A stretch of 55,465 bases of DNA, taken from an uncultured Clostridia bacterium (GTDB taxonomy: Bacteria; Bacillota; Clostridia; Oscillospirales; Ruminococcaceae). The position numbers were made by a program, and so were the translations under genes. Positions 23,101 to 31,076 of this stretch are shown piece by piece. The stretch spans positions 1 through 55,465 of the forward strand of contig CANQYD010000012.1 of assembly GCA_947627985.1 (NCBI GenBank), given 5' to 3'. The notes beneath the pieces are model-generated. The model was given only the letters and a program-made list of their open reading frames with translations, was not told the DNA's origin and did not search any database. How positions within the stretch are numbered: position 1 is the first letter of the stretch; every line of letters starts with the position of its first letter.

Positions 23101-23816
23101 GGTTTGGGGGAGACAAGTCAAGTTTAGGATCAAGCCCAGATGCGGTCAAAGCGACCGCATCAAGAGGACAGAGGACAGAAGTCGGATTGTCAGAATTTCA
23201 AGGTGTCACCGTTGGTGACAGATTTAATTAGTGAGAATAATGAGGGCTTGCGGGGGTTTCGCGCTCCGCAGAGCGCGAAATCTCCGCAAAAAGGGCAGCG
23301 AAAGCTGTCCTTTTTGCTTTTATACTTCAAAAGAGGGCGACGAAGTCGCCCGGAGCCGAGCGAAGCGAGGCGCAAAAAGCCCCTCCCCGGTGGGGAGGGG
23401 TTGGGGTGGGGAGAGCACGGAGGGGTGTGGGGAACCATGCAATGGTGCCCCACACTTGCCGAGCGCAGCGAGGCAAAACAGCAGTGCAGTCGTAAAAAGC
23501 GCTTTGTGCCACACAGCAAGGGAAATACAGGAGCCCATGATAGTATGAATAGCACTCCCATACCCGCCGCTCCCTTGGTCAAAAGGTATATCAAATTCCC
23601 GCAAGAGCGGAAATTTGATATGCTGTTTCAAGCAGACCCCCACCCCCGTCGAAGTCTGAGCGGACTTATAGCCGAGCGAAGCCCCCTCCCCCTTTTAGGG
23701 GGAGGGGGCTCTGACTTTCGCAAAACCTTTCTCACCGAACTTCGCAATCAAAAACGCAAGATTGCTCGTGTTTGAGAGTTTTTGCCGCAAGTCGGGGGTG
23801 AGGGAAAGAGCTCCTC
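23101..23816. repeat. Repeat region left of the phage head module (block 3)
   Basis: This region begins with the GACAAGTCAAGTTTAGGATC module (23113-23132) and the 109-bp repeat at 23139-23247. An AAAGGACAGC/GCTGTCCTTT-type hairpin (about 23295-23315), a GGGCGACGAAGTCGCCCGG hairpin (about 23336-23353), a GTGGGG/CCCCAC hairpin (about 23427-23453), a TATCAAATTCCCGC/GCGGAAATTTGATA hairpin (23588-23620), and a stretch to 23801 that is repeated at 52694-52863 follow. No gene is supported. Confidence 0.75.
23139..23247 (+). repeat. 109-bp inverted repeat, left copy
   Basis: This copy matches the reverse complement of 30952-31060 at all but 6 of 109 positions by eye. It contains its own inverted repeats: GATGCGGTC/GACCGCATC (23139-23161) and TGTCACC-GTT-GGTGACA (about 23202-23218). 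Its right end is GAGGGC. It lies just downstream of the aminopeptidase gene. Confidence 0.92.
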
Positions 23817-24752
23817 CTAATTCCCATACCCATCATGGCTCACCCTGATCTCCGTCACCACGCCGCAGTCCGGTCTGCCTTCGACCGTAAACCCCGTGAT
23901 ATCCCCGGAAAAGCCCGAACCGGAGATGCTCAGGCGCTCGAGCAGGTCGCACTTGACATACCCCCAGAACCTGAAAGCGTCGACGTTTTCCTCCCTCTCG
24001 GAGTAGTCGATCCTCGCCTTGAGCCCGGCTTCGGGGTCCATGATCCACTCGCGGTCAAAGGGAATCTCCTGCGCCCTGACGATACTCTTTCGCGCCGCGG
24101 TCGAGCTCACCGCCGTATAGCCTTCTCCTTCGCCGTCGATCGGCTTCATCGTGATCTTCGAGATGATCCTCGAAAAATCGCTTGTGAAGCTTCTTGAGAT
24201 CAGCTGATCTTCGGAAATTTCGTGCACCTCGGGGTTTTCCGGCGGGGTGATCCTGATGAGGTTATACCCTGAAAGATAGGGATATTTTCCGCCCGCTCTG
24301 ACGGTGTAGCTGACGATCCCGTCCCAGAGGCTGGTGCCGTTATAATAATTTACATAATTAACCGTTGGGGTATCCGGCTGATATGTTATGCCCGATATCC
24401 TTATCCCCGACGACGACACCAGCGACTCGAGGTTGACGTCGGTAATCAGCCCGTCGGCACACTGATTTGTCATGAGCTGACAGGAATAACTCCTGCTCGA
24501 AACTTTCAGAACAGCCCTCCCGTCCTGATTTTTAATGCTGACCCCGCAGGGCATGCCGTTGTGAACGACGGCGTTGTCGATGTAAAGGATCACCGAGATT
24601 ATCTCCGAATAATTTACATTTTTGGGGCAATACCATTCCCCCGTCACCTCGGTATAGGGAAGCAGCCGATTTTTTGTGAACTTAAAATTCAGGCAGTCGG
24701 TAAGATTCAGAGCGGACCTTGAATATCTCAAAGTCAGGCGGACGTTCGTCAC
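23817..24752 (-). CDS. Phage protein, probable baseplate-hub/tail-hub-like
   Basis: This 311-residue protein is the last gene of the head module. It has no clear signal peptide. The pattern of beta-rich segments (VRLTLRYSRSALNLTDCLNF near the N-terminus, then KVSSRSYSCQLMTNQCADGL and a C-terminal TGFTVEGRPDCGVVTEIRV) reminds me of hub proteins of the XkdQ kind, which join the tail to the needle. That is a weak resemblance, not a motif hit. It overlaps the preceding gene by four bases (ATGA-type). A general minor structural protein is the alternative. Confidence 0.55.
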   Translation of the reverse strand: MTNVRLTLRYSRSALNLTDCLNFKFTKNRLLPYTEVTGEWYCPKNVNYSEIISVILYIDNAVVHNGMPCGVSIKNQDGRAVLKVSSRSYSCQLMTNQCADGLITDVNLESLVSSSGIRISGITYQPDTPTVNYVNYYNGTSLWDGIVSYTVRAGGKYPYLSGYNLIRITPPENPEVHEISEDQLISRSFTSDFSRIISKITMKPIDGEGEGYTAVSSTAARKSIVRAQEIPFDREWIMDPEAGLKARIDYSEREENVDAFRFWGYVKCDLLERLSISGSGFSGDITGFTVEGRPDCGVVTEIRVSHDGYGN

Positions 24753-25495
24753 GTTTCGTTCACCTCGGCATATTCAAGATTTATCTCCGACACCCCGTCT
24801 GCGGTCGTCTTAAGATCAGCCGTGACAAGGGTCATTCCGCTGTAGTCGGCACGGTCGATGATTAAAGACCCAGCCTGCTTGCCGAGCCCGGTTTTAAGTG
24901 CTGCGAACACCTCCGAGCCGCCTAAAGAAAGCTTTCCCTTTATCTTTAAAACTGCCGGTCTTTCGCCGACGATTCTCGTCTTGATGGTGCCGTTGATGAG
25001 AGGGGTCTCGGCGGTCTTTATGCGGTTTATGACCTCGTACTCGGTCATGCAGGGATAGCTTATCCCGTCCACCGAAAAACCTATGCTCTCGGGAGGTCTC
25101 GCGCCGGATTCATATGACGAAAAATGCAGCTCGCAGGAGGATATAAATCCTCCCTGTTCCTTTGAATATTTCGTCGGGAGCCGCCTTATCTCGGTGATCT
25201 TTCCAAGACACATGCTAAGAGCCGGCACGGCTTTTTGATCAAGAAGATTTTCAAGATAACCGGCGCCCGAGGACCTCTTGCCCAAAAGCTCCACAAGATA
25301 TACCGCGTCATATCCGTCCAAAGAGCCTCCCGAGCCGTCGGAAGCCTCGGGTCTTATGCCGTAGGAGCTTACGCCTCCGAAGCAGATGATCTCATTTCTT
25401 CTCTCCGGCAGATTTATCTCGGAATAGAGCTCTTTTATGTCCCCGAAAGCCGTTTTCAACGCCGATATCACCGGCGAAAGCTCGTTTTCAAACAT
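24749..25495 (-). CDS. Phage structural protein of unknown class (possible two-domain tail protein)
   Basis: This 248-residue protein appears to have two parts. The N-terminal half (to about 140) has a small connector/tail-terminator-like flavour (SLDGYDAVYLVELLGKR). The C-terminal half (about 141-248) starts with FSVDGISYPCMTEYEVINRI and ends in a repeated beta pattern as in tail-tube-initiator domains. No family is certain. The ATG at 25495 overlaps the stop of the connector gene (TGATG). It lies between the connector and hub-like genes, consistent with a head-tail joining or tail role. Confidence 0.5.
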   Translation of the reverse strand: MFENELSPVISALKTAFGDIKELYSEINLPERRNEIICFGGVSSYGIRPEASDGSGGSLDGYDAVYLVELLGKRSSGAGYLENLLDQKAVPALSMCLGKITEIRRLPTKYSKEQGGFISSCELHFSSYESGARPPESIGFSVDGISYPCMTEYEVINRIKTAETPLINGTIKTRIVGERPAVLKIKGKLSLGGSEVFAALKTGLGKQAGSLIIDRADYSGMTLVTADLKTTADGVSEINLEYAEVNET

Positions 25496-25872
25496 CACCC
25501 CGCAGCCCCCTCGAAGACAAATCCGACGTCGCCGCAAAGCCCTTCGGGAAGCGCCGCCAAAGCCTGCTTCCAGAGATTTTCGGCGGCGGTCACGCTCCCG
25601 CTCTGATATGTTCTCAAAGAGGCTCCCCCGCTCACCGTGGCGTAGCTGTTTTCGGAAGCTATCCTGAGCGCTGTGTAATCATAAAATGCCTTGCATGCCG
25701 CGGCATATTCGCAGGAAGCGATCTCCTCGCCGACGGGTTCTCTTAAAAATCTCTTCTCGGAAAAAGCCCTCGCGGCTGTTATCAAAGACGAATAACCCTC
25801 GGCTTCGGTCGGGTCGAGATGAGTGAGCTCACAGAATCTTGACTTGATGTTTTCTTCATTCAAAACCGACAT
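25495..25872 (-). CDS. Phage head-tail connector-like protein
   Basis: This 125-residue, mostly helical protein (CEYAAACKAFYDYTALRIA) sits directly after the major capsid gene, where gp6-like connector adaptors are found in HK97-type phages. Position and size support the connector role; no sequence motif proves it. GAAAGGAGAATTTAA precedes the ATG. A strong stem-loop separates it from the capsid gene. The stop overlaps the next start (TGATG). Confidence 0.6.
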   Translation of the reverse strand: MSVLNEENIKSRFCELTHLDPTEAEGYSSLITAARAFSEKRFLREPVGEEIASCEYAAACKAFYDYTALRIASENSYATVSGGASLRTYQSGSVTAAENLWKQALAALPEGLCGDVGFVFEGAAG

Positions 25873-25896
25873 TTAAATTCTCCTTTCTTTAATTTT

Positions 25897-25926
25897 CGGG
25901 TCGCACGGAAATCTCCGTGCGACCCG
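25897..25926 (-). other. Intercistronic stem-loop after the capsid gene
   Basis: CGGGTCGCACGGA (25897-25909) and TCCGTGCGACCCG (25914-25926) form a perfect 13-bp stem with an AATC loop. No T-run follows on the minus strand, so it is more likely a processing or stability element that sets capsid mRNA apart from its neighbours than a full terminator. Confidence 0.75.
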
Positions 25927-25934
25927 CATTATTA

Positions 25935-26909
25935 TCAGGCGGACTTGACGTTCAGTACGGCAGCGGCGCCGGGATAGATCTTTGCAAATCCCACCGACAC
26001 GCTGAAAGCGATGTTGTCAAGCTGATTCGAGATCAGCTTCTCGTTGTCGATGATGATGTCCGAACCGAAGACGGTCTCAAGCGCGCCGGTGCTGTCAACG
26101 CCGATGACGGTATTGTCCTCCATGCCGTTGCACTTCACGAGTTTGACTCCGAAGGGCATGGTGACTACGCCGCTTGCCTCGCCTTCGCAGTCGCTCATCT
26201 CGGGAAGAGACAAGATAGTCGCCATCGTAGCCGGGGAGACGAGCATGGTGCTCATGCTTCCGTCCTTGATACCCGCCCAGAACGCCGCAAGGTCGGAGTA
26301 TGCGATAGCCGCAGAAGCGGTCTCGGAGCTCTCGGCGCCCGTCTTGAGCACCTCGGCTGCGGCGTTGTTGATAAGTCCGGAGACCTTCGCGCCGACGGAC
26401 TTCAAAACGACCGAGAAGAGATCGAGGCGCTGTTTTCTTAAGACCTCATAGGCGGTCTGGATCTGTCTGCCGTACTTGGAGACGGCGACGGCGTCGGACC
26501 CGGTCTTGACGGTGGTGATGGGAAGCGCCTCCCCCTCGGCGGTGGTCTTTGCGGACGGCTCCGCGTCATTGAGGCTGATACCGTAGTATCTCACGCCGTC
26601 GGTGTAGGTCTTGGCGGCTGAGATATAGGGCAGGACGGAAGCCTGATCCATGCCCGCCTTAATGCATCTGCGGACAAATTCCGGGAAGAGGATCGCGGAC
26701 TGAGTCGTCGCGAAGAATTTCTCGACGCGGTCGGAATTTTCGCCGCTGACCCTGATGTCAAACCTCTTGAGCTGGCGCTCGAAGGCGTCCAAGCCCTCGA
26801 GCTCGGTGCCGACGTAGTTGTCGTCGCGGTCGAGTTCGGAAAGAGCCTCGGTGAAGCTCTTGCCGGTGATGTTGTAAAGTCCCTTTTCAAGTGTGATTTC
26901 GTTATACAT
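25935..26909 (-). CDS. Phage major capsid protein (HK97-fold type)
   Basis: This 324-residue protein is in the position of the major capsid gene, after portal and protease. The N-terminal part is helical and charged, as in scaffold-like or delta regions; the sequence then shows an E-loop-like and long P-domain-helix pattern (ARFVRRCIKAG-like PEFVRRCIKAGMD), and the C-terminal third DNTVIGVDSTGALETVFG resembles HK97-like capsids of the phiBT1/BK5-Tp-like kind. AAAGGAAATTTAACT precedes the ATG. It forms the shell around packaged DNA. The assignment rests mainly on context and size plus these features. Confidence 0.82.
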   Translation of the reverse strand: MYNEITLEKGLYNITGKSFTEALSELDRDDNYVGTELEGLDAFERQLKRFDIRVSGENSDRVEKFFATTQSAILFPEFVRRCIKAGMDQASVLPYISAAKTYTDGVRYYGISLNDAEPSAKTTAEGEALPITTVKTGSDAVAVSKYGRQIQTAYEVLRKQRLDLFSVVLKSVGAKVSGLINNAAAEVLKTGAESSETASAAIAYSDLAAFWAGIKDGSMSTMLVSPATMATILSLPEMSDCEGEASGVVTMPFGVKLVKCNGMEDNTVIGVDSTGALETVFGSDIIIDNEKLISNQLDNIAFSVSVGFAKIYPGAAAVLNVKSA

Positions 26910-26952
26910 AGTTAAATTTCCTTTCTTTGATAAAAAATTTTTTGTAGATGAT

Positions 26953-27795
26953 TCAGGCGATCCGAAAGCTCTGATTTTTGAGCTCGCGATCGTCGCCTAT
27001 GCCCTTTTTCAGGGCTGATTCGAGTTCCGATGATTTTTTGGACGGTGTATTTCCCATCGCCTTTTTCATGCGCAAAAGCTCCTCCGCGTCCATCTTCATG
27101 ACGGCTTCTTTGAGCATCGCAACGGGGATACCGTCGCCCTCCAAAAAAGAGAGCCGCAAAATATCCCGCCTCAGCTCTTCGGTGAGCTCTTCCGCGATGC
27201 TTCTGCCGGAGTCATGGCGCTCAAAATCGGCACGGCATTTTTTGGTAACGCCCGCGCCTTTCTGAGCGGGAACGGCAACAAAGCTCCACTCAAAGGCGTC
27301 GGTAGGCTCGTCCAAGATGTGATAGCACTGCCTGCCGTTGTAATACCGACCGAGCTTGTGGGAACACGGTCCCTTCCTCACGTCCCTGCCGCATATCGAG
27401 CAGGTCTGTTTTGAGATGGCGCAGCCGACCGATACTTCCTTTTTGATACCGCCGTCGATCTCTCTGATGAGGTCGGCGTTTGACGATGTCCTGACCATAT
27501 AGGCGTTCGCCTTGAGGCAGGTATAGACCTCTCCGTCTGCGGTTTTGCGTGTAGGATCGGTCACGACCGACGTATCAAAAATCCTCGCGGTCTGATTCTC
27601 TCCTTTGGGATCATGGCTGAAAATCCCTGTCTTTCCGATGTACAGCCCCGCGAGCTTTTTAAGAGCCGAGACGGTGAATTTCTCGCCGTCGCGGTCTATA
27701 TCGTTGTCGCAGAGTATCACCGGAAAGATATAGACCTCCTCCTCGGTCAGTTCCTTTCTTGAGAAGCGGTTGATTTTTTCAAGATTACTCTCCAA
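26953..27795 (-). CDS. Phage prohead maturation protease-like protein with a zinc-knuckle insertion
   Basis: This 280-residue protein sits between portal and capsid, as expected for a prohead protease or scaffold-protease. A segment near residues 30-150 has GIFSHDPKGENQTARIFDTS with a later EVSVGCAIS, resembling the His/Ser regions of such proteases. A CSICGRDVRKGPCSH run (Cys-x2-Cys-x6-Cys-x-His) next to FEWSFVAVPAQKGAG looks like a metal-binding insertion. I choose the TTG at 27795, with AGGAGG nine bases upstream and an 11-bp overlap with the portal gene. Confidence 0.7.
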   Translation of the reverse strand: MESNLEKINRFSRKELTEEEVYIFPVILCDNDIDRDGEKFTVSALKKLAGLYIGKTGIFSHDPKGENQTARIFDTSVVTDPTRKTADGEVYTCLKANAYMVRTSSNADLIREIDGGIKKEVSVGCAISKQTCSICGRDVRKGPCSHKLGRYYNGRQCYHILDEPTDAFEWSFVAVPAQKGAGVTKKCRADFERHDSGRSIAEELTEELRRDILRLSFLEGDGIPVAMLKEAVMKMDAEELLRMKKAMGNTPSKKSSELESALKKGIGDDRELKNQSFRIA

Positions 27796-28945
27796 TGCTT
27801 TTTTCCTCCTTGATGTTTGAAATTTCGATACTCTTCGCCTGAGCGTTCCTAAGTCTTGCAAGGGCAAGCTCCGTCTCGTCCTGAAGATTTATGTTCTCCC
27901 ATTCGATTACTCCTCCCGATGAGCTTCCCAAGAGCCTTAAGTGCGCGCTCACGATCTTTTCAAGAGCCGGGGTCATGAGGCGTCTGTAATACTCAAGCTC
28001 GCTCGTTAAGATATCAGCCTGCTGGCTCGACATTCTCTCGGTCGTCGACCAGTTCAGACCGAGAAGAAAGGGAGGAATGCTGAGTTTGGATATCAGCTGC
28101 TCCAGAATCTGCCGGACCGGCACCTCGGTGTCAAGAATCCGGCAGTCGGCGCCGATGGCTTTTACCGAGACGTCTCCCACGGCTACAAAGTCCTGCACCG
28201 AACCGTTTTTGGAAGCCGCCATGCCCTTGGACCACTGCTCTGCAAGCTGCTTTGCCCGCTCTTTGGCAAAAGCCTTGTCCCCGGAATCGGATGACGGCTT
28301 GTAGGTGACGGCGTACCGCACATTTCCCGCGCGGTCAAAATTTTGCCCGATACAGTCATAAATCCTTAAAAGTATCGCCGACAGCGACGGCAGACCCTTT
28401 AAGACCGATACCCCGCAGGGCTGCTCGGAAGTCGGTCCCAATGCCGTAAACACGAGGTTTTCGGGGTTGTTTATCGGTATCGGCTCGCTTGATCCGATGT
28501 GATAATAATCCCTGCCTCCCGAGGAATTCGGTCTTGGGTCGATCTTTTTCATCGGCGCGACGTACAGCCCCTCCACGCCTCTGCTCTCCTCGCCGTAGAT
28601 GATCTCCCCGAGGGCATGACCGCATGTCAGAAGCGAATCGAGATAGCAGTCGGAAAATGTCTGAAGACCCCATCCCGAAGGACCGACGGGAACGGTCTTT
28701 ACGAACCGATCAAGCTCCTCCTGAAAGTTTTCCTCCAAGGCTATCGCCTTAAAGCCTCCCGTCAGGCGGACTATCTTTGCGATACACGCGTCGATGACCG
28801 GCACCCGCTCTCTTAAGGCGTAGTAAAGCTCCTTCTCGCCCGATCTGCCTTCAAGCGCGAAGAATCCGCCTGATCTGTGCCTGTCCGCGGTATCCACCGG
28901 GCACTCGGGCTTGGGGATTTCCCTGCGGTTTTTAAAAATTGTCAA
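27785..28945 (-). CDS. Phage portal protein (DUF935/Mu gp29-like)
   Basis: This 386-residue protein resembles the portal ring subunit through which DNA enters and leaves the capsid. Features include VIDACIAKIVRLTGGF (near residue 50), GWGLQTFSDCYLDSLLTCGHALGE, and a long helical stem with ISKLSIPPFLLGLNWSTTERMSSQQADILTSELEYYRRLM. The TTG start at 28945 has GGAG nine bases upstream. It begins 21 bp after the large terminase. Phage or phage-derived elements are the only known source. Confidence 0.87.
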   Translation of the reverse strand: MTIFKNRREIPKPECPVDTADRHRSGGFFALEGRSGEKELYYALRERVPVIDACIAKIVRLTGGFKAIALEENFQEELDRFVKTVPVGPSGWGLQTFSDCYLDSLLTCGHALGEIIYGEESRGVEGLYVAPMKKIDPRPNSSGGRDYYHIGSSEPIPINNPENLVFTALGPTSEQPCGVSVLKGLPSLSAILLRIYDCIGQNFDRAGNVRYAVTYKPSSDSGDKAFAKERAKQLAEQWSKGMAASKNGSVQDFVAVGDVSVKAIGADCRILDTEVPVRQILEQLISKLSIPPFLLGLNWSTTERMSSQQADILTSELEYYRRLMTPALEKIVSAHLRLLGSSSGGVIEWENINLQDETELALARLRNAQAKSIEISNIKEEKSIGE

Positions 28946-28966
28946 TAATAAGCTCTCCTTTCATAT

Positions 28967-30217
28967 TCAGTTTCTTTCGACGTTGAGTGCAAAGAGCCCG
29001 TCGAAGTGCTCCGTCAGGACGCCCGATACAAAGTATCTCAGATCGTCCATCGCGTGGTCGTTTTCCTTGATGACCGCGTCTTTGCCGCCTTTGGGGTTCC
29101 AGCGGTAGGTCTCAAATTCCCTGATACAGTCGGCGCATGTATTTGAGATGAATATCTTCCCCGACCTCAATGCGTCGCCGACCCTTCTTATCCCGCTCAG
29201 AACGTCGTTGTCGGCGGGTATCACACGGTATCTGCCATGCCGCCTTATGCACTCGATAAAGCTTGCCGCCGACGGATCGACTATGACCGCCTCGATCTTC
29301 CTGCCTCCGATGAGCCGGGTGAGAGCCTCGTAATGCTCTTCATCGGTCCTCTGGGCGCCCTCTCTTTTTGAGCTGTAGTAGTATTCGTCGATGCGATACC
29401 ATGCCCCGCCCGATTCACCCCAAAGTCCGAAGGAGGACGGGTTGACGGTCCCGTAATCGCAGCTCACATAAAACCTGTCGCAATCCGGCACGAAGTCCAC
29501 GACGTGAACGCTTCGCGAAAACATCGGATACACGCAGCCCGAGAGAGCGGTCCATCTTCCGAGGACGAATCTTTGATAGAAAGCCCCGCTGTAAAGGCTT
29601 TCATAGCGCTTTCTTATCTCCCGCGTGAGGCTCGGGTTGTCCTCCATCGTGAAGTGGAGATAGAGAGCGTTTTTCTCCTCGGCTTTTTTGATCCACTCGG
29701 TGTAAAACCAGTGCGACGGGTTGTCGGGATTGCAGTTGAACCAAAGGCGCGAGCCCGTCAGCGAACACCTTGCGATCGCCTGCTCGACAAACGATCGGGG
29801 CATGAGCGCGACCTCGTCAAGAAGCACTCCTCCGAGGGTCAGCCCTTGGATCAGCGACGCCGAGCTCTCGTCCTTGCCGCCGAAGAGGTAAAAGCGGTTT
29901 TCGCGACCGCGGTATTTTACGGTGAAGTAGTTTTTTGAGATGGGATAGTTCACCGAAAATCCGCACGACCTCAGATACTCGGTCAGGTCGGCGACGATAT
30001 TTCTGCGGACCGACGCGACGGTTTTGCCGCAGATCGCAAAGGACGTGCCTTTAAAGCAGCTCATCGCCCAGAGAATGAATGAGACCGACATCGAGACGGT
30101 TTTACCGCTTCTGACGGCGCCGTCGCAGATGATGGCGCAGCGGTCTTTGGTCTTGCTTTTCATCCACCAGTTGATGACGGTCTTTTGCTTTTCCGAGAAA
30201 TTCTCAAGGCTCAGCAT
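28967..30217 (-). CDS. Phage terminase large subunit (PBSX type)
   Basis: This 416-residue DNA-packaging motor has both expected domains. The ATPase has Walker A GAVRSGKT (residues 34-41), Walker B GGVLLDEVALM and a coupling motif near LWFNCNPDNPSHWFY. The nuclease domain has the acidic CDYGTVNPSSFGLW, VDPSAASF and the late DHAMDDLRYF, all with their aspartates intact. It would cut and pump DNA into the prohead. The ATG at 30217 overlaps the small-subunit stop; a TTG one codon upstream is the alternative. Confidence 0.95.
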   Translation of the reverse strand: MLSLENFSEKQKTVINWWMKSKTKDRCAIICDGAVRSGKTVSMSVSFILWAMSCFKGTSFAICGKTVASVRRNIVADLTEYLRSCGFSVNYPISKNYFTVKYRGRENRFYLFGGKDESSASLIQGLTLGGVLLDEVALMPRSFVEQAIARCSLTGSRLWFNCNPDNPSHWFYTEWIKKAEEKNALYLHFTMEDNPSLTREIRKRYESLYSGAFYQRFVLGRWTALSGCVYPMFSRSVHVVDFVPDCDRFYVSCDYGTVNPSSFGLWGESGGAWYRIDEYYYSSKREGAQRTDEEHYEALTRLIGGRKIEAVIVDPSAASFIECIRRHGRYRVIPADNDVLSGIRRVGDALRSGKIFISNTCADCIREFETYRWNPKGGKDAVIKENDHAMDDLRYFVSGVLTEHFDGLFALNVERN

Positions 30218-30663
30218 CAATCATCACCCGACGAAGCGGAATCCCTAAGAGCCGAGAAAAGCCGATCAGCCGATTCGTTTTCCGAATCGGAACGGGTGAT
30301 CTCAAGGAGCCTTTTTAAGGCTTCGAGGCGGTCAAAAAACTTGATCTCCATGCCTCCGCCCTTGACCCGCTTGATCTCCGAGACGTTGAAGAGATCGAGC
30401 GCGGCGACGTCCTGCGGCTCGTCGTCCGAAAGAAGCTTGAGGGCGTCGTTGATCCTCCCGAAAGCGAGACGACGAAGTCCCGCAAGAGCCTGAACGCTTC
30501 CGAGACTGCCCGCAGAAGCGGTCTTTAAAATCCTCCGAACCTTCTTGCTTTCAAGGAGCTTGAGACCCTCGGCAAGAGCCGAGCCGGGTGGGAATCCCGC
30601 CTTTTTTGCAGCCTCCTCGGGACTGCCGAGAGTGAGGAACAGGCGGGCGAAGTCCTCGCACAT
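30217..30663 (-). CDS. Probable phage terminase small subunit
   Basis: This protein of about 148 residues precedes and overlaps the large subunit, as TerS genes do. The N-terminal region (CEDFARLFLTLGSPEEAAKKAGFP) reads as a helix-turn-helix for recognising DNA, followed by a helical oligomerisation part. The ATG at 30663 is my choice; a longer frame can be read upstream to a TTG at 30789, but that TTG lies in the loop of a hairpin (30774-30803), which makes it an unlikely start. AGGG is the nearest upstream ribosome-binding match. Confidence 0.7.
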   Translation of the reverse strand: MCEDFARLFLTLGSPEEAAKKAGFPPGSALAEGLKLLESKKVRRILKTASAGSLGSVQALAGLRRLAFGRINDALKLLSDDEPQDVAALDLFNVSEIKRVKGGGMEIKFFDRLEALKRLLEITRSDSENESADRLFSALRDSASSGDD

Positions 30664-30864
30664 TTTTGCCCTGTCCGGGCTTTTTTCATCTGCCGTAGCA
30701 AACCTTCCTTTCCGAAAGGGCGAATTTTTCCGGCGCGCTCGAAAATCCCTTTCACTTATACCCCGAAAAAGGCAAAATGTTGTACGCAAACGTACAACAT
30801 TTTTGAAAATTTTTTTAAAAAGGCGCTTGGAGTCCGTTTGTACGGACTTGTTTACTGTAATTTT
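30664..30864 (-). promoter_or_regulatory. Leader of the phage head module with attenuator-like hairpins
   Basis: From the promoter the leader reads on the minus strand through AGTCCG/CGGACT (30831-30848) and the perfect 13-bp inverted repeat AAAATGTTGTACG/CGTACAACATTTT (30774-30803), whose right flank on the minus strand is GCCTTTTT. A stem followed by a T-tract in a leader could end transcription early. The same palindrome could instead be a repressor site. Confidence 0.6.
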
Positions 30865-30894
30865 ATAGTAAATTAGTTAAAACAGGGATGTCAA
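30865..30894 (-). promoter_or_regulatory. Candidate promoter of the phage head module
   Basis: On the minus strand TTGACA (30894-30889) is followed after 18 bases by TACTAT (30870-30865), a four-of-six match to the -10. It lies about 200 bp before the terminase start. A second short inverted repeat, TTTACT/AGTAAA (30851-30872), overlaps it. Confidence 0.55.
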
Positions 30895-30951: not shown

Positions 30952-31060
30952 GCCCTCATTATCCTCACTAATTAAATCTGTCACCAACGGTGACACCTTG
31001 AAATTCTGACAGTCCGACTTCTGTCCTCTGTCCTCTTGACATGGTCGCTTCGACCGCATC
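30952..31060 (-). repeat. 109-bp inverted repeat, right copy
   Basis: This copy has the same length and, in reverse complement, the same sequence as 23139-23247 apart from 6 mismatches. The TGTCACC/GGTGACA hairpin is preserved. Three of the mismatches fall in the GATGCGGTC/GACCGCATC arm, spoiling that hairpin here. It ends 16 bp before the aminotransferase promoter. Confidence 0.92.
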
Positions 31061-31076
31061 TTTCCCCAACTCACCC

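Follow-up and report, generated by a model that had tools for sequence, protein, structure and literature searches.

A host-inherited phage head cassette of Ruminococcaceae that probably encodes small particles resembling gene transfer agents

Gene transfer agents (GTAs) are viriforms, described in PMC9662315 as derived from tailed phages, transmitted vertically, packaging at best part of their own genome and produced by a small subpopulation of cells. A 2026 paper describes GTA-like packaging in the families Ruminococcaceae, Oscillospiraceae and Christensenellaceae, naming Ruminococcus callidus (4.6 kb), CAG-115 and Onthomonas; in the accessible portion of that paper a candidate operon is named for Faecalibacterium only (PMC12946183). 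The particles of this element, FpGTA, are about 40 nm, have no identifiable tail and contain 8.4-8.9 kb of host DNA (PMC12946183). Other papers on such an element in Oscillospir-, Ruminococc- or Faecalibacterium hosts were not found among those listed by open-literature searches. Here we describe an eight-gene phage head cassette on a 55,465-nucleotide stretch of DNA from an uncultured gut bacterium of the Ruminococcaceae (contig CANQYD010000012.1, positions 1-55,465, assembly GCA_947627985.1), the whole of which is referred to as the window. We read the cassette as a phage head module that has been domesticated, is passed on with the host chromosome and most likely makes small GTA-like particles. 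RcGTA and the other alphaproteobacterial GTAs are likewise encoded by a vertically inherited head cluster, in different hosts (PMC9662315).

The cassette occupies positions 23,817-30,663 of the minus strand, where eight consecutive open frames stand between host genes in the order TerS, TerL, portal, g4, major capsid protein (MCP), g6, g7 and g8 (Table 1). From TerS to g8 the intergenic gaps are -4, 21, -83, 43, 62, -43 and -4 nt. A first-pass annotation had described here a compact, fully open head module with intact TerL active-site residues and without integrase, repressor, sheath, tape measure, holin or lysin, and this description held: all eight frames were present and open, and family scans gave no match to any of those six functions, nor to replication or excision genes, in the eight genes. 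Nine of the ten flanking genes scanned matched host families (ABC transporter, Crp-like regulator, aminotransferase, TrmO, AMP-binding enzyme and others) and one matched none. Neither an integrase nor a primase was found in the eight cassette genes and these ten neighbours, and no long direct repeats flanking the cassette were found.

Table 1. Features of the cassette and its surroundings in the window. TerS is taken from ATG 30663; some of the eight gene starts are uncertain.
Feature	Positions	Strand	Evidence or remark
TerS, small terminase	30217..30663	-	148 aa from ATG 30663; Pfam Terminase_2, 1.4e-8 to 3e-8
TerL, large terminase (ATPase, nuclease)	28967..30220	-	Terminase_6N 1.8e-13; NCBIfam TIGR01547 PBSX-family TerL 1.4e-56
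Portal protein	27785..28945	-	phrog_30703 1.2e-135; 48 invariant columns over 39 aligned sequences
g4, likely prohead protease, scaffold-like C-terminus	26953..27867	-	phrog_16951 4.1e-96 (function not recorded)
MCP	25935..26909	-	phrog_3922 7.7e-72; Phage_capsid_4 8.5e-11
g6, head-tail adaptor-like connector	25495..25872	-	profile against Anaerotruncus-type gene at that position, probability 98.5, E 3.6e-15
g7, fused connector/tail-completion genes	24749..25537	-	profile comparison of halves with separate genes
g8, baseplate-hub family (Mu gp44 type)	23817..24752	-	genus profile against Anaerotruncus-type hubs, probability 98.6, E 1.2e-15
H2 dyad AAAATGTTGTACG-TTTG-CGTACAACATTTT	30774..30803	-	upstream of terS; probable operator or leader hairpin
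H1 hairpin (AGTCCGTACAAACGGACT core)	30830..30849	-	26 nt before H2; in most genus alignment rows
Promoter-like site TTGACA-18-TACTAT	30865..30894	-	consensus match
Dispersed repeat, left copy	23138..23247	+	inverted pair; 42 genome matches; outside cassette
Dispersed repeat, right copy	30952..31061	-	inverted; 95% complementary to left copy

The cassette is under purifying selection. In TerL, the positions which we take to be Walker A, Walker B and the nuclease Asp were present in the window and invariant in every ungapped relative (86-89 alignment rows), while one Asp beside the catalytic positions was Glu in 5 of 89 rows. Ratios of nonsynonymous to synonymous substitution (dN/dS) were calculated by the Nei-Gojobori method for 14 pairs; since many pairs had dS above 1 and several values were missing or not computable, the single ratios are rough, ranging over 0.009-0.161 for TerL, 0.013-0.155 for portal, 0-0.206 for MCP, 0.081-0.265 for g4, 0.089-0.365 for g6, 0.109-0.233 for g8 and 0.144-0.540 for g7. 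The highest g7 value came from a pair at 23% identity, probably different genes. The host control gene M29 gave 0.034 for one pair only, a wrong frame having been taken in the other two of three pairs. A ratio near 1 had been named beforehand as the outcome that would speak against the first-pass suggestion of selection; TerL, portal and MCP all stayed at or below 0.206, well under 1, in agreement with the invariant catalytic residues and with the recurring locus and vertical inheritance described below.

Within the genus, the portal gene was present in 15 of 31 genomes, always in single copy and without stops. Sampling of the family gave 126 carriers among 297 genomes, spread over 62 of 126 genera; every match was free of stops, and each genome had a single one apart from G037, with two partial matches. 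In the order, 70 of 394 genomes (41 of 168 genera) carried the portal. None of the genomes in the family and order samples had two full portal copies. In a class-wide sample, 8 of 391 genomes had a portal match, and all 8 belonged to the same order. A scan of GTDB species genomes gave 111 relatives, of which the best 80 were retained; their NCBI labels included Ruminococcus (17), Anaerotruncus (4), Merdimmobilis, Marasmitruncus, Faecousia and others, with 49 of the 80 bearing no genus label. Among these best 80 of 111 loci, 69 had all five core genes, 63 in the order TerS-TerL-portal-g4-MCP and 6 with MCP before g4; no third order was seen in the 69. The other 11 did not match at least one core gene; several of them lie on short or truncated contigs, and L108 and L115 are portal-only.

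The genus carriers hold the same short cassette. At 13 genus loci (excluding the window and the partial locus L139) the eight genes were together in the same order, the seven after TerS being open across 85-100% of the window's length. Integrase and tail genes, which the first-pass annotation had named as evidence against its reading, were not seen among the genes scanned beside the window's cassette. Their TerS measured 61-95% of the window's long frame, which takes in the leader: the frame is open up to 30789, and the TTG start of some relatives is TTT in the window. In L140 the TerS frame, for a time suspected of being broken, is open, with no ATG, GTG or TTG at the expected start.

The cassette also recurs beside the same host genes at most of the genus loci. 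A host block consisting of a 585-aa gene (by eye, presumably arginyl-tRNA synthetase), an ABC transporter operon, a Crp-like regulator and the M29 gene stood near the cassette at 10 of the 14 loci that could be assessed, L139 being too short; at the remaining four (L132, L134, L136, L138), whose flanking genes were not identified, these neighbours were not found. In the non-carrier G003 the synthetase and the ABC-Crp-M29 block are 2 kb apart with no cassette between them, in the same arrangement as in carriers G005 and G024, which makes this an empty site. The ABC block adjoined M29 in four (G001, G003, G004, G030) of the nine non-carriers fetched from the 16. In the window the block is rearranged and M29 adjoins g8. 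The first-pass annotation had placed the locus between an M29 aminopeptidase and an aminotransferase; M29 or its ABC-operon block does accompany most loci, but the aminotransferase is not a conserved neighbour, lying on a different contig from the cassette in 13 of the 14 other carriers and having no match in G017.

A tree of rpoB was constructed from 28 of the 31 genus genomes, G002, G018 and G028 having no match to the model. A single branch (support 100/99) parted the 13 carriers from the 15 non-carriers, a split that none of 500 label shuffles equalled. A second tree, made from TerL, portal, g4 and MCP of 14 carriers (the partial G028 was left out), largely agreed with rpoB, recovering G000 (the window's genome) and G022 as a pair inside a group with G021, G017+G023 and G025+G027+G029. 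The single rpoB branch, the recurring locus and the single copy support vertical transmission of the cassette with the host chromosome. Since relatives pass it on like ordinary genes, it is probably a tamed virus particle, perhaps for moving DNA, and not a dying virus.

The identities of the later genes are less direct than those of the terminase, portal and MCP. For g4, a weak match to a head maturation protease (phrog_18299, 0.011) was obtained, and His85 and Ser146, presumably a protease-type motif, were kept in 91 of 92 rows; from these residues and its place between portal and MCP, g4 is likely a prohead protease with a scaffold tail. Direct family scans of g6, g7 and g8 gave no match above a cut-off, and their folds were deduced from profile comparison. 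The Anaerotruncus-type counterpart of g6 matched the head-tail adaptor phrog_541 at 0.012. The N-terminal half of g7 matched a separate 140-aa gene (probability 97.7) and its C-terminal half a separate 118-aa gene (98.2), the two parts being separate genes in Ruminococcus. Of the two genes that the first-pass annotation called tail- or hub-like, g8 is a baseplate hub and g7 a fusion of two genes. Profile comparison did not support the C-terminal half of g7 as a tail-tube domain or as the pre-hub gene F18, and its homologues (15 members) gave no convincing match in family scans; a tail terminator in the N-terminal half was supported indirectly, A5 against A9 giving a probability of 90.9, and not by the direct comparison (0.7). 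The Anaerotruncus-type hub of L091, the one scanned, matched baseplate hub phrog_177 (3.4e-16) and, weakly, Gp44-like_2nd (0.0011). Against the PDB, a wide g8 profile gave three matches, of which two weak ones were phage hub or tail proteins (3d37, 0.028; 1wru, 0.49); the genus-only profile gave no such match. With the genus-trained profile, g8 was not matched at four loci (L111, L113, L114, L118) or in the short cassettes among L119-L129, which may therefore be reduced still more.

Longer forms of the cassette occur elsewhere in the order. The cluster of Anaerotruncus colihominis (L091) continues beyond the head genes with a short sheath and a tube-like gene, then small genes, a hub, a GP46 wedge, Baseplate_J and two more genes; no long tape measure was found among the small genes of this tail region. 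A DegV gene lies upstream and the ribosomal protein S20 gene downstream. Five upstream families were common to L085, L086, L087, L091 and L098 (Anaerotruncus, Merdimmobilis, Marasmitruncus), with an S20-family gene at all of these except L086. We labelled a locus long when a sheath or Baseplate_J was found and short when neither was found in at least 6 kb searched downstream of MCP. The 115 portal rows (108 distinct, some rows being the same genome fetched twice) comprised 25 long, 61 short, 6 portal-only and 23 undetermined loci, or 23, 58, 4 and 23 as distinct sequences; L376, labelled short, has one tube-like match. On a portal tree made with a short search and a simple model, the long and short labels changed 8 times compared to 27.7 in shuffles, and the window's portal clade of 52 rows held 40 short, 12 undetermined and no long forms. 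From this distribution short forms seem to have arisen more than once, and since the long form is the fuller phage-like set, we infer that the direction was tail loss. Domestication with loss of the tail is well supported.

A wider history can be proposed tentatively, as possible rather than probable: an ancient, order-wide domesticated lineage may originally have had a head and a short contractile tail between housekeeping genes, and may have lost the tail several times, leaving head plus hub under a terS control signal. If so, the GTA-like packaging reported in hosts like Ruminococcus callidus would gain the genetic basis that it has lacked, and the lineage would form a new viriform family. 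Repeated tail loss, with head, packaging motor and control signal under strong selection, would bear on what the particles are for. As candidate clusters are now available in many genera, those of R. bicirculans 80/3 (L051) and R. albus 8 (L073) among them, deletion and particle tests are possible.

FpGTA as described in PMC12946183 and the window's cassette have related hosts, and in both a compact operon holds TerS, TerL, portal, scaffold and MCP. Replication genes are absent from both, and FpGTA is described as podovirus-like, with no identifiable tail (PMC12946183). FpGTA I (CP030777, 2536737-2546346) comprises ten open reading frames in 10.5 kb, whereas the cassette has eight genes; FpGTA also has a second locus with baseplate, fibre, holin and endolysin (same source), whereas none was found for the window's cassette in a search with Baseplate_J and GH25. 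The likeness to FpGTA is drawn from its description, and the portal-gene-MCP order agrees with the order of accessions RCH50851 and RCH50849 only. In the search for a second locus, which covered Baseplate_J and GH25 and no other tail or lysis families, Baseplate_J was found in 4 of the 31 genus genomes, three of them carriers, G000 not being one.

PBSX of Bacillus subtilis shares with the cassette the TerL family, the head gene order and domestication. PBSX has a full contractile tail, lysis genes and a regulator, packages random host DNA and kills competitors, whereas the window's cassette has only a hub. Long relatives such as that of Anaerotruncus resemble PBSX in having sheath, tube-like, hub and wedge genes; in the window no contractile tail gene was found among the eight genes, and G000 has no Baseplate_J match (sheath was not searched genome-wide). 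Alphaproteobacterial GTAs have siphovirus-like tails. Capsid-forming phage-inducible chromosomal islands (PICIs) combine head genes and terminase without a tail, as the cassette does; these islands are mobile and carry integrase, primase and regulators, whereas neither integrase nor primase was found in the cassette and its ten scanned neighbours.

When the cassette is set beside the GTA description, TerL, portal, phage MCP and hub testify to an origin from tailed phages, and the inheritance is vertical. DNA-filled particles are likely, judging from the genes, and gene transfer by them is plausible. Several observations weigh on the other side. The cassette is dispensable, since 16 of the 31 genus genomes are without a portal. 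One of the 70 order-wide portal matches (G513) is interrupted by a TAG stop. The cassette tree puts G024 and G005 elsewhere than rpoB does, so some exchange or a long-branch error is possible. A lysis or receptor-binding locus was not found in G000 with a GH25 query (E to 1e-20; other lysis families were not searched), and GH25 lysozyme matches were seen in 5 of 15 carriers and in all 16 non-carriers. In PMC6854486, GTA-type TerS is described as without an N-terminal DNA-binding domain, RcGTA having no helix-turn-helix, and FpGTA TerS is reported without an obvious DNA-binding domain (PMC12946183). The window's TerS covers positions 7-130 of the 141 in the Terminase_2 profile, and because the match begins at position 7 the N-terminal part appears retained; in nine relatives the match started at 6 (L073, L132), 47 (L127) or 51 (L121), and five had no Terminase_2 match. 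The element is therefore called GTA-like and not filed as a GTA. Finally, particles, packaged DNA and delivery are predicted from the genes.

The first-pass annotation had offered a domesticated capsid, a GTA-like particle or a satellite with a borrowed tail. The first two agree with the vertical inheritance, the recurring locus with its empty site, the low dN/dS and the invariant catalytic residues. It is unlikely, though worth serious thought, that the capsid was domesticated for another job, such as PBSX-like killing, altruistic lysis or DNA storage, with the head filled and no genes delivered. Such a role would suit the lack of receptor-binding and lysis genes among the eight, the hub as the sole recognised tail part (and no g8 match in some short relatives) and the PBSX-family TerL. 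PBSX, however, kills through its contractile tail, and G000 has no Baseplate_J match; the invariance of the TerL nuclease and ATPase further indicates that DNA packaging matters. PMC12946183 calls PBSX tailocin-like and itself raises a PBSX-like role for FpGTA. The satellite, an element like the capsid-forming PICIs that takes its tail from a helper, would explain the head-only gene content, and a copy of the upstream element H1-H2 (see below) does stand ahead of DUF3987 and HTH_17 genes in G027, whose homologues in G018 lie near members of an integrase cluster. Yet no integrase or primase was found in the eight genes and ten scanned neighbours, no long flanking direct repeat was found, the host flanks are common to several species, no sampled genome has two full portals and presence follows the host tree along one branch; with no integrase found and this host-tracking presence, a satellite is very improbable.

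That the cassette is a prophage remnant still open by chance is hardly credible: its genes are indeed of phage type, lacking replication, lysis and most tail functions, but there were no stops in the portals of 126 family genomes and one in 70 order-wide, dN/dS is low, the catalytic residues are invariant and the vertical inheritance is deep. It is likewise highly improbable that the cassette belongs to a phage lineage that is still alive, has a very short tail, integrates in this order and keeps its other genes elsewhere. Portal relatives do occur in IMG/VR (33 loci) and in records named 'Bacteriophage sp.', but 27 of the 33 IMG/VR contigs are shorter than 10 kb, and class-wide sampling found the family in a single order. 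Of 50,697 phage records, six matched the portal, all below 60% identity: five unannotated 'Bacteriophage sp.' records from human faeces and one Microcystis phage at 30%. Three of the five faecal records were fetched. Two of them hold a related cassette together with chromosomal genes, namely secY, adk, ribosomal S5 and L6, MCRA and fucosidase in MT835508 and recG in MT835769, and are therefore regarded as bacterial chromosome; the single protein scanned in MT835952 had no match. No accession match was found that ties the Mexican 'Bacteriophage sp.' records to purified particles. TerL alone had 1084 relatives in phage records, nearly all below 60% identity, as expected of a phage-derived gene.

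For a GTA-like particle, a working scheme can be suggested. The conserved signal ahead of terS would control the operon, and MCP and the g4 protease/scaffold would assemble around the portal. TerS and TerL would then pump DNA into the head; as neither replication nor excision genes were found, this DNA is most likely from the host chromosome. The portal may be sealed by g6 and the fused g7, the hub g8 may serve as a minimal tail tip, and lysis and receptor-binding functions would come from other genomic loci.

The signal upstream of terS contains two elements, the hairpin H1 and the dyad H2. A GTTG-N12-CAAC dyad was detected in 43 of 78 upstream regions (65 order loci and 13 genus loci, L050 being dropped as the same genome as L141) compared to 9 of 1560 two-base-block shuffles. 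The spacing was 12 in 39 of the 43, the arm bases varied in paired fashion, and in L143 the hit differs from its aligned H2. With a profile built from 26 genus copies, 31 of 66 order loci gave a match, in each case on the strand of terS, and no further match occurred in those loci. Among the 31 is L050, whose genome also supplied a training row. The window's terS leader folds better than shuffles (z -3.7) and matched no known RNA family at the gathering score. H2 is a probable operator or leader hairpin. The promoter-like site is weak by itself, as 5 such sites occurred in the region where 4.0 were expected. Within the leader (30703-30757), GAAAGG, CCTTTC and GAAAGGA near the ribosome-binding site occur in most genus alignment rows; two alternative pairings among them are conceivable, as in a translation switch.

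Further exact H1-H2 copies were present in five carriers (G018, G019, G021, G026 and G027), most of them in G026. These copies (L329-L342) are intergenic, some beside tRNA-Arg, tRNA-Val, tmRNA or likely integrative-element genes. In G027, which was scanned, one precedes genes for DUF3987 and HTH_17 proteins; in G018 one precedes their homologues, and by clustering, members of a cluster that includes an integrase are close by. In G026 (L337:5201-6482) a copy is followed by an 89-aa protein with one transmembrane segment, a 103-aa protein with three and a GH25 lysozyme, a holin-endolysin-like arrangement. A role of H1-H2 as a GTA-regulon promoter was rejected, since GH25 is commoner in non-carriers and, by eye, 8 of 14 extra-copy regions have no adjoining co-directed gene. 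Exact H2 was seen in 10 of 15 carriers and 0 of 16 non-carriers, a difference confounded by phylogeny, and kissing loops between H1 and H2 were dropped because, by eye, the complementarity is not kept in L133, L140 and L142.

A clade of small genomes (L369-L372, L108, L115; fetched members 0.7-0.9 Mb) keeps the portal gene intact, and neither terminase nor capsid was matched in the approximately 20 kb read; L110 of the same clade has terminase genes nearby on the opposite strand. Retention in genomes of this size was dropped as evidence, the four fetched genomes showing only the portal in 20 kb. In the window, a 110-bp repeat with 42 matches in the genome brackets the cassette in inverted orientation (Table 1).

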